From: Pseudanabaena sp.
Lineage (GTDB): Bacteria > Cyanobacteriota > Cyanobacteriia > Pseudanabaenales > Pseudanabaenaceae
Assembly (NCBI GenBank): GCA_003249035.1
Contig: QBMK01000002.1
Span: 82,495-146,494, forward strand
Direction: 5' to 3'
DNA: 64,000 bases
The notes under the pieces are model-generated. The model worked only from the letters and a program-made list of their open reading frames with translations, made no database searches and had not been told where the DNA came from. Positions 32,887 to 35,359 of the stretch are shown in pieces. The position numbers and the translations under genes are program-made. How positions within the stretch are numbered: position 1 is the stretch's first letter; each line of letters starts with the position of its first letter.

Positions 32887-33699
32887 ATGAAAACCAACCT
32901 CATGTCATCAATCGAGCTTCTTAATTACTATCGCCAGATGAGTACAGAGGTGTTCACGGTTGTCGATCTCGAAACAACTGGAGGAATGGGACATAAAGAT
33001 CGCATTATCGAGATTTCAGTTCTAAAAGCAACGCTCAAAGATGGAATCCAGCAAATATTGACAGACTTAATCAACCCTGAAATCGCGATTCCCAATCAAA
33101 TAGTTCGATTTACGGGAATTTCACAGAATATGGTCGATCACACATCCACTAGCGATCGCATTTTGCCTAATTATCTGCCAATGCTGGAGTCTGGCATTCT
33201 CACCGCTCACAATTTTAGTTTTGATTATTCTTTCTTGCAAGCTGAATATCGCAGATTAGGAATTACTTTTAAAGCACAAGCTCAACTTTGTACGGTAGAA
33301 TTGTCACGGCTTTTATTGTCACATTTACCATCACGATCGCTACAAAAATTGGTAAAGCACTATGGATTTGATGTCGGTCAGTCCCATCGAGCAGAGTCCG
33401 ACGCGATCGCCTGCTGGTTGCTATTAGAGAAGTTACTTACGCAAATACTCAACTCATCTGATGCTGAGATTCTCCATCTTTTCGGGCAGCAATGGCTATC
33501 TATAAAGGATATTAGCGTAATTCTCAAGCTTTCGCCGAATAGAGTGGAATCTTTATTTTCGGATGCGGCAATAAAATCACGATTTTCCCGCTATCGCCAG
33601 ATAAACCTATATCAACGGAGTGGAGTAGAGATGTTAGCGGACAAACTTAAAATAGAGTCTCGAAAAGAGATAGCTGAACAGCTTGCGCTTCCTCTTTAG
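32887..33699 (+). CDS. DEDDh (DnaQ-type) exonuclease with a C-terminal clamp-binding-like motif
   Basis: A 270-residue 3'-5' exonuclease of the DEDDh class: motif I VVDLETTG (Asp 27, Glu 29), motif II in HNFSFDYSFL, and motif III HRAESDA. It is related to the epsilon proofreading subunit of DNA polymerase III or to PolC exonuclease. Residues 185-260 carry a short HTH-like extension (LSIKDISVILKLSPNRVESLF). The last six residues, QLALPL (265-270), resemble the sliding-clamp-binding hexamer QLSLPL. The tail overlaps the convergent photolyase gene by 53 nt. Starts at 32,902 or 32,938 are possible; no strong ribosome-binding site is seen. Confidence 0.85.
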   Translation: MKTNLMSSIELLNYYRQMSTEVFTVVDLETTGGMGHKDRIIEISVLKATLKDGIQQILTDLINPEIAIPNQIVRFTGISQNMVDHTSTSDRILPNYLPMLESGILTAHNFSFDYSFLQAEYRRLGITFKAQAQLCTVELSRLLLSHLPSRSLQKLVKHYGFDVGQSHRAESDAIACWLLLEKLLTQILNSSDAEILHLFGQQWLSIKDISVILKLSPNRVESLFSDAAIKSRFSRYRQINLYQRSGVEMLADKLKIESRKEIAEQLALPL

Positions 33700-35359
33700 G
33701 TTTTGCTTTTTTGTTAGAGGTTTTTTGAGAAGCCTTGCTAGAGGATTTCTCTACTTTTGGCTTGAGAGAACTTGGTTTATGGGATTTGATTTCGACATGA
33801 GCAACTAACCAAGTTCGCAAATTCACTGCTTGCTCGGTATTCAATCTATTCAAGTCAAGCGCTTCTGGAAATAATCGTGGATTGCGCTCGGATATCCAAT
33901 CTGACTTTTCGTTAGAAGCAGACATTGCAAAAGGAATTGGAAATTCAGGCATTCTGGCTAAATAGGGTAAGACATTTTCTTGTTCGCGAAACGCCGATCT
34001 CTGTCGTTCTAATTGCTTGACTCTTTTCTGTCTTGCCTGTTTGTAATCGAGCATCGGTGCAGGATAGCCGTATATCTGCAAATTTCCTGCCAACTTTTCA
34101 ATGGGAACTTCCGACAACTCTGGTAGCCAACGCTTAATAAATTTGCCTTCGGGATCGCATCTAGTGATCGCCACTTGCCCTGGATTGTAAATCCGCGTCC
34201 ATGATTTATCGACACAGTGAGTGACCCCTGCTTGCATTGCCCATTGATAATGGTCGATCGCGCAGTCCGCATCAAGCAAATGCTGCATAAAGTGTAAAGC
34301 TCCGTAACGCCAATCCATTCCCAATAGGTTGCTCAGAAAGCTGGAATATATAGCTCGACTACGAAAGTTCAACTCTTTCCAGCCTCCCGTTGCTTGCAAA
34401 CACCGAGCCGCCGCATCAACGATGGGAAATCCCGTCAGTCCCTGTTGCCATTTTTGATAGCACTCAAGATCGAATTCCCATCCTTCATCGTCAAAGATTG
34501 AGTATAGCGATCGCAATTCTAGCTGAGGTATATAGCGAAATCTCTGATGGAAGCCACTCCCCCAACGCAATCGCGAAATTAGCTGCTTGCTGCTACGGCG
34601 AACCCGAAAATCGGGATCGTTGGTAAAGGCTTTAGCAAATTGCACACATTCTCTTATCGAAATTGCGCCAACTTTGATATAAGGACTTAAGCCCGTGGTG
34701 GCTTCAGCGCTAGGATAGGATAGTTGCCAATAATAACTTTCGGCTTTGCTATCAAAAAATTCTTTGAGAAGCGATCTCGCTGGTTCCGTTCCCCCTGCGG
34801 GAATGATTTTGAGATCGCTTTTATGCCCTAGCTCTTCTAATGTGGGAATAGGTTCGCTAGTTATATCGTCTGGTACGACTATTCTCTGAGGTGGCGGCGC
34901 GATCGGCGCATTCATATCTTCGTACCAGCGATCGCGATACTTGGGATAGGCAATTAGTTCGTCAATACTAGCTGGTGGCTCGAACCAGCGTATTTTCATT
35001 TGTCGTTCGGCTAAAGCAACATTCAGCTTGGCATCTCTGACTCGGCAATAGATGCGATCGCAATCCGTATGTGCGTATATTCCCTCCGCTTGGCTTTCGG
35101 CAATCAGATTCGGTAAAATTTCTATGGGATTGCCAATTCTTAAAATTAATCTGCCGCCAAGTTTCCGCAGATCTAGATCCAGAGATTTTAGGCATTCCAA
35201 AGTGAAAGCAATCTGGGCGGGACAAGCTTCAGGATGATGCAGTAGCGATCGCTCAAAAATGTAGATCGGAATGACTTGACCTCGGCGAGCCGCTCTTTGC
35301 AAGGGCTCACAATCATGTATGCGTAAATCCTGTCGAAACCAGACAACTGTATGCGGCAT
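33647..35359 (-). CDS. cryptochrome/photolyase-family protein with a C-terminal clamp-binding-like motif
   Basis: A 570-residue flavoprotein: N-terminal antenna domain (VVWFRQDLRIHD), and FAD domain with WGSGFHQRFRY, GFPIVDAAARCLQATGGW and RIYNPGQV...DPEGKFIKRWLPEL. The CPD-photolyase WxW neighbourhood (NNGGWQW in E. coli) reads AIDHYQWAMQAG, so the repaired lesion or the photoreceptor role is uncertain. A Lys/Ser-rich tail (about 520-558) ends QLSLFETLF; QLSLF (562-566) matches the consensus of the bacterial beta-clamp-binding pentamer. Its stop codon lies 53 nt inside the exonuclease gene. Confidence 0.88.
   Translation of the reverse strand: MPHTVVWFRQDLRIHDCEPLQRAARRGQVIPIYIFERSLLHHPEACPAQIAFTLECLKSLDLDLRKLGGRLILRIGNPIEILPNLIAESQAEGIYAHTDCDRIYCRVRDAKLNVALAERQMKIRWFEPPASIDELIAYPKYRDRWYEDMNAPIAPPPQRIVVPDDITSEPIPTLEELGHKSDLKIIPAGGTEPARSLLKEFFDSKAESYYWQLSYPSAEATTGLSPYIKVGAISIRECVQFAKAFTNDPDFRVRRSSKQLISRLRWGSGFHQRFRYIPQLELRSLYSIFDDEGWEFDLECYQKWQQGLTGFPIVDAAARCLQATGGWKELNFRSRAIYSSFLSNLLGMDWRYGALHFMQHLLDADCAIDHYQWAMQAGVTHCVDKSWTRIYNPGQVAITRCDPEGKFIKRWLPELSEVPIEKLAGNLQIYGYPAPMLDYKQARQKRVKQLERQRSAFREQENVLPYLARMPEFPIPFAMSASNEKSDWISERNPRLFPEALDLNRLNTEQAVNLRTWLVAHVEIKSHKPSSLKPKVEKSSSKASQKTSNKKAKPKEEAQAVQLSLFETLF

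Follow-up and report, generated by a model that had tools for sequence, protein, structure and literature searches.

Putative sliding-clamp-binding motifs at the overlapping 3' ends of a photolyase-like gene and an exonuclease gene in Pseudanabaena

Clients of the bacterial sliding clamp (β clamp, DnaN) carry a short clamp-binding motif (CBM), published as Q-φ-x-[LM]-[FL] or Q-φ-x-[LM]-x-[FL] (PMC11139829). The clients listed in that 2024 review are polymerases, the clamp loader, mismatch repair proteins, ligase and Hda; photolyase is absent from it. Hda, a regulator of DnaA, has the hexameric motif QLSLPL at its N terminus, and the peptide PAQLSLPLYL binds with a KD of 0.38 µM (PMC11139829). 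In polymerase clients, a flexible tail terminates in the motif (PMC11139829). The epsilon subunit of DNA polymerase III (DnaQ) is a 3'-5' exonuclease of the DEDDh fold that also contacts the clamp (QTSMAF). A second line of earlier work concerns the origin of coding sequence: antisense overprinting of whole small genes, such as laoB, is known in E. coli (PMC5810103). Here, we describe two neighbouring genes of a Pseudanabaena species that encode a photolyase-like flavoprotein and a stand-alone exonuclease, not polymerases, and that both end in putative CBMs.

The window analysed comprises 64,000 nucleotides of the Pseudanabaena genome referred to as G000 in all comparisons. The gene of a DEDDh 3'-5' exonuclease (32,887 to 33,699, plus strand; 270 aa, ending in EQLALPL) and that of a photolyase/cryptochrome-like flavoprotein with a long K/S-rich tail (33,647 to 35,359, minus strand; 570 aa, ending in VQLSLFETLF) converge tail to tail, and their coding sequences overlap on both strands by 53 bp (33,647 to 33,699). 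The C terminus of the exonuclease is the hexamer QLALPL (33,679 to 33,696, plus strand), which fits Q-φ-x-[LM]-x-[FL], and the pentamer QLSLF close to the C terminus of the photolyase (33,662 to 33,676, minus strand) fits Q-φ-x-[LM]-[FL]. The motifs lie back to back, and the centre of the overlap is an inverted repeat, AGCTG-AA-CAGCT (33,672 to 33,683, both strands), with the Gln-Leu codons of one motif in each arm. A scan of the region gave no terminator-like structure in or near the overlap, the inverted repeat included, and the repeat was therefore rejected as a terminator. Within the overlap, the DNA of each motif encodes the partner's linker on the other strand; since these linkers are flexible, both motifs can be kept. 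In the photolyase, the disordered, K/S/E-rich linker that precedes the motif comprises residues 520–561 (33,677 to 33,802, minus strand), as judged from pLDDT and family conservation. The overlap and both motifs had been proposed in an original prediction made from the DNA alone, and on re-reading the sequence its coordinates, frames, motif positions and the length of the overlap were exact, as was the match of both tails to a clamp-binding motif.

How often such a tail occurs by chance was estimated from about 0.47 Mb, about a tenth of the G000 genome: among 378 other ORFs with 100 aa or more, only 3 carried a strict CBM within the final 12 residues. For one pair of genes this background alone is not decisive; conservation, as far as it can be judged from sequences, is. 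The DnaN of G000 has 11 of the 18 pocket residues of the E. coli β clamp (taken from PMC11139829), core ones included (L155, T172, G174, H175, R176, L177, P242, N320, Y323, M362 and P363), and the others are mostly conservative replacements. A UmuC/DinB-type polymerase ORF of G000 was searched as a positive control and had no strict CBM; it was dropped, so there is no positive control here for canonical use of the CBM in cyanobacteria. Another C-terminal clamp-like motif was seen outside the window, on contig C22 of G000 (loci L187-L206), in a 243-aa ORF that ends in KDLLEQLSLLASA.

Orthologues of the photolyase-like protein, 44–97% identical, are present in the Pseudanabaenaceae and in several other cyanobacterial families. 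A strict CBM is found in the last 12 residues of 73 of the 84 full-length orthologues (0.25 expected from shuffling of the tails) and a looser one in 81 of 84 (2.9 expected from shuffling of their own tails), so the motif singled out in the original prediction is almost universal among its homologues. In the family alignment, no part of the protein is less conserved than the linker in front of it, and residues 520–570 are disordered in the structural model, with pLDDT below 50. Other photolyases (class I and DASH-like) from the same and related genomes, those of G000 included, had no CBM in any of 23 cases. The photolyase motif is also kept without any overlap in three further genomes (G020, G036, G037) and in other families. 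In P. cinerea (G010), the photolyase ends early, at residue 494, and an exonuclease homologue is missing; a single deletion that spans both 3' ends would give this pattern. The photolyase of G016 is broken by a stop and frame changes (L220:5478-6668) and what is left of its motif is QLSLS, whereas the overlapping exonuclease is intact and keeps QLSLPF. Apparently, the motif in the frame of the dead gene is decaying and that of the partner frame is kept.

Both Pfam domains of photolyases, DNA_photolyase (PF00875) and FAD_binding_7 (PF03441), were matched, and the nearest solved structure is that of the class I CPD photolyase of S. elongatus/A. nidulans (1owl). The two have the fold of two domains, the FAD domain and most of the Trp chain in common, but their identity is only about 30% and the family described here adds the CBM tail. 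The cut-off of TIGR03556 was clearly missed (215.8 versus 884.6 bits), and the other curated models of class I CPD photolyases were likewise under their cut-offs. In the class I enzymes, Glu283, Asn349 and Trp392 (A. nidulans numbering) contact the CPD dimer. The three contact residues are replaced by Arg263, Phe332 and Met375, which are invariant in all 57 aligned members, and the residue that faces N5 of the flavin is Asp369, where class I has Asn. Of the electron transfer chain, Trp350 and Trp373 are invariant and Trp294 is present in 72% of these members. In view of the replaced contact residues, it is unsafe to file the flavoprotein as a CPD photolyase: the predicted active site is invariant but non-canonical, and the subfamily probably has an uncharacterised activity, although CPD repair was not assayed. 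There was no evident match to the Phr1-Phr8 set of picocyanobacteria (PMC9426592) in a comparison made without a phylogeny.

The exonuclease consists of a PolC-type exonuclease domain (residues 25–176), an HTH-like region (about 190–250), in which HTH_17 matches were weak, and the C-terminal tail. It matches Pfam RNase_T with 3.2e-25, the catalytic residues D27, E29, D113, H167 and D172 of the DEDDh type are invariant in 23 homologues, and Foldseek matched the AlphaFold model (pLDDT 91; mean of 61 in the last ten residues) to PolC/DinG/DnaQ exonucleases. It shares with Pol III epsilon the fold and the activity, but it is below the cut-offs of all curated epsilon models (71.4 versus 71.5 for the dnaq subfamily model), has the HTH-like region and carries a strong motif at the C terminus. 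Only 11 of the 386 cyanobacteria sampled have the gene, and thus the enzyme is not a general proofreader.

Conservation of the exonuclease tail is uneven. Among the 65 homologues from outside the Pseudanabaenaceae, 53 have a loose CBM at their end (3.4 expected from shuffling) and 21 a strict one (0.28 expected), with tails such as QLSLL, QQMSLL, QLSWL, EQLSIL and HQLSLP, several of which (QLSWL, QLSIL, QLSLP) fit the pattern only loosely; 12 of the 65 do not have even a loose match. Inside the family, 18 of 25 exonucleases are without the motif, and the seven that carry it form one clade (97/96) in an otherwise motif-less family. The assumption that homologues keep the tail therefore holds for most exonucleases outside the family and for one clade inside, but not for many close relatives. 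This clade comprises the overlapping copies of G000, G016 and G011 and relocated copies in G020, G011 (G011b), G030 and G017 (100/99); where G000 has QLALPL, the tails of its relatives read QLSLPL, QLSLPF, QLSFPL or QLSLF. The relocated exonucleases of these four genomes keep QLSLPL or QLSLF, mostly as EQLSLPLY, with no photolyase adjoining. EQLSLPLY is almost identical to the Hda peptide PAQLSLPLYL, and the hexamer is the same as in Hda (AQLSLPLY), with the difference that it is C-terminal in the exonuclease. In P. frigida (G011) the exonuclease is present twice, both times with a clamp-like tail: one copy overlaps the photolyase and the other is elsewhere (L217:5953-6780, L221:4973-5785). 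The idea that the exonuclease motif exists only through the overlap was rejected because it also occurs in relocated copies and in other families; judged by its distribution in both proteins, the motif is independent of the overlap.

Restriction of the overlap to a single strain, which would have spoken against the original prediction, was not found. Three Pseudanabaena species (G000, G011 and G016) have the overlap intact, a remnant is left in G015 (only the last 84 residues of the exonuclease) and a relic of about 12 residues in G009, and a separate overlap of 19 bp is present in G437 of family f15. The remnants show an old overlap that is decaying. In other members of f15 the two genes are convergent neighbours with a gap of about 290 bp (G443) or 660 bp (G438), and in G448 they are 1.7 kb apart with three ORFs in between. 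Convergent pairing hence recurs in three genera (G000/G011/G016; G437/G438/G443; G448). Between the convergent genes of G438, there is a PIN-type toxin/antitoxin-like pair (L208:5328-5981). Most genomes with both genes have them unlinked, and pairing is thus not needed for function. Both genes occur together in 6 of 386 genomes (11 with the exonuclease, 9 with the photolyase; Fisher p = 8e-9), but there was no association within families f15 and f24, and this co-occurrence, being phylogenetically clustered, is only weak evidence. Between G000 and G011, divergence is 11% in the overlap against 22–24% elsewhere; with the broken photolyase of G016 it is relaxed, at 17% against 16%. These figures are consistent with a dual-coding constraint, but the bases are too few to rely on.

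Where did the motif of the Pseudanabaena exonuclease come from? The motif-less exonucleases of the family are 249–279 aa long, those nearest to the motif clade 254–260 aa, and they stop at about position 249–265 of the G000 protein, approximately opposite the stop codon of the photolyase: exonuclease codon 254 (33,646 to 33,648) covers the start of that codon (33,647 to 33,649). The extension that is missing from them (residues 254–270; 33,646 to 33,696, plus strand) thus coincides with the overlap. Because two genes cannot both have passed on the same stretch intact, at least one of the tails must derive from antisense reading of the other, and as the photolyase has its motif at the same place in relatives without an overlap (G020, G036, G037, other families), the exonuclease tail is the newer one. 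The likeliest history is that the exonuclease gained a new CBM from the antisense of the photolyase tail, a direction that is inferred from distribution and parsimony. Two demands on a case of overprinting are met: the new segment is missing from relatives and matches the older frame, and the older frame is independently conserved and ancestral. Alternatively, the motif could be the ancestral one of the family, as in f15 and f24, which was lost often in relatives and around which the overlap formed later. In other families the exonucleases indeed have tails of the EQLSLL/EQLSIL type at about the same position, and loss is frequent, as the homologues without even a loose match outside the family document. 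However, a hand count on the tree requires about seven independent losses in the Pseudanabaenaceae and their neighbours for retention, versus one loss and one regain; retention also has to account for the antisense origin of one tail when the photolyase tail is common to genomes without the overlap, and the hexameric LPL type of Pseudanabaena is unlike the QLSxL of others. Motif losses are common (in some members of f15 and in most Pseudanabaenaceae), and ancestral retention with many losses is not excluded, but we regard it as unlikely.

A regain by overprinting is not without difficulties. It is favoured by parsimony on a tree that leaves the order of overlapping and relocated copies unresolved. 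A secondary loss also has to be assumed for G020, where the exonuclease is relocated and the photolyase has no overlap. Upon synonymous recoding, an antisense CBM arose in 9–10% of cases for this photolyase tail, in 0–2% for non-overlapping tails and in 0.6% for background genes. The idea that a photolyase tail encodes an antisense CBM nearly for free was dropped, since the first value reflects past constraint and the other tails are so much lower; as non-overlapping tails rarely encode such a motif, overprinting is improbable a priori. A resemblance of the photolyase tail to the reverse reading of unlinked exonuclease tails was not used, because it follows from the homology of the exonucleases alone. 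Antisense-overprinted bacterial genes of the laoB type (PMC5810103) were likewise born antisense to an existing gene, but those are whole new small genes, whereas here an old gene was apparently extended at its end by a short interaction motif that lies opposite a like motif. In the literature searched, of which the coverage is incomplete, we found no short interaction motif born by antisense overprinting.

The motifs might also be real but serve a purpose other than DnaN binding. Short hydrophobic C termini can act as protease signals, and with no binding data a C-terminal degradation signal, or another partner with a hydrophobic pocket, has to be considered. Gln at position 1, Leu at position 4 and a tolerant position 3 are, on the other hand, the specific pattern of a CBM; 3–12 residues follow the motif in G365, G444 and G437, which a terminal degron would not tolerate; and both proteins are DNA-processing enzymes. 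Such a use is in our view improbable. Somewhat less credible still is a function of the overlap itself, that is, regulation by antisense transcripts or a shared terminator. The recurrence of the convergent arrangement in three genera would fit, but a terminator-like site is absent, the distances range from overlap to 1.7 kb, in one case with the PIN-type toxin-antitoxin pair inserted, and the genes are far apart in most genomes that have both. Finally, two tails could merely resemble CBMs by chance: at a background of about 0.8% per gene, about 0.06 such convergent pairs are expected per genome. This is refuted because the motifs are conserved in dozens of species although the linkers have diverged, and hardly any weight is left for it.

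Altogether, with a probability of roughly 0.75, we favour the reading that both proteins are clients of DnaN via C-terminal CBMs and that the exonuclease regained its CBM antisense to the photolyase tail; binding, joint action and the direction of overprinting are inferred. Both enzymes are likely to act on the clamp, and both tags are conserved well beyond the strain, but in the absence of binding data the tethering of both, as first proposed from this locus, remains an inference. Each CBM would dock in the peptide pocket of DnaN and thereby bring the flavoprotein and the 3'-5' exonuclease to loaded clamps at forks, gaps and repair patches, where its flexible tail would allow either enzyme to reach the DNA nearby. 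The motif is old and conserved in the photolyase subfamily and likewise in the exonuclease family outside the Pseudanabaenaceae; the Pseudanabaena lineage of the exonuclease probably lost it first, and a new CBM would then have arisen when the frame read through its former stop and on along the antisense of the photolyase tail. It is tempting to speculate that one ring of the dimeric clamp, with its two pockets, could carry both enzymes. A clamp-binding photolyase was not found in the literature searched (β clamp, DnaN, PCNA/PIP box; coverage incomplete), and as a clamp client, with binding inferred, it has thus no precedent there.

Whether the non-CPD photolyase/cryptochrome subfamily is a dedicated clamp client that couples light repair or sensing to the replisome, with the antisense of its tail giving the partner exonuclease a second working CBM, is in our opinion evenly balanced. 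If true, a clamp-bound photolyase-like enzyme would carry light-dependent repair or sensing to forks and gaps, and this in organisms whose DNA is copied in sunlight. Its active site, unusual yet conserved, also hints at an activity that has not been characterised. The overlap would be a rare, testable case of an interaction motif that, by inference, arose from the antisense of another motif and outlived the overlap after the gene had moved.
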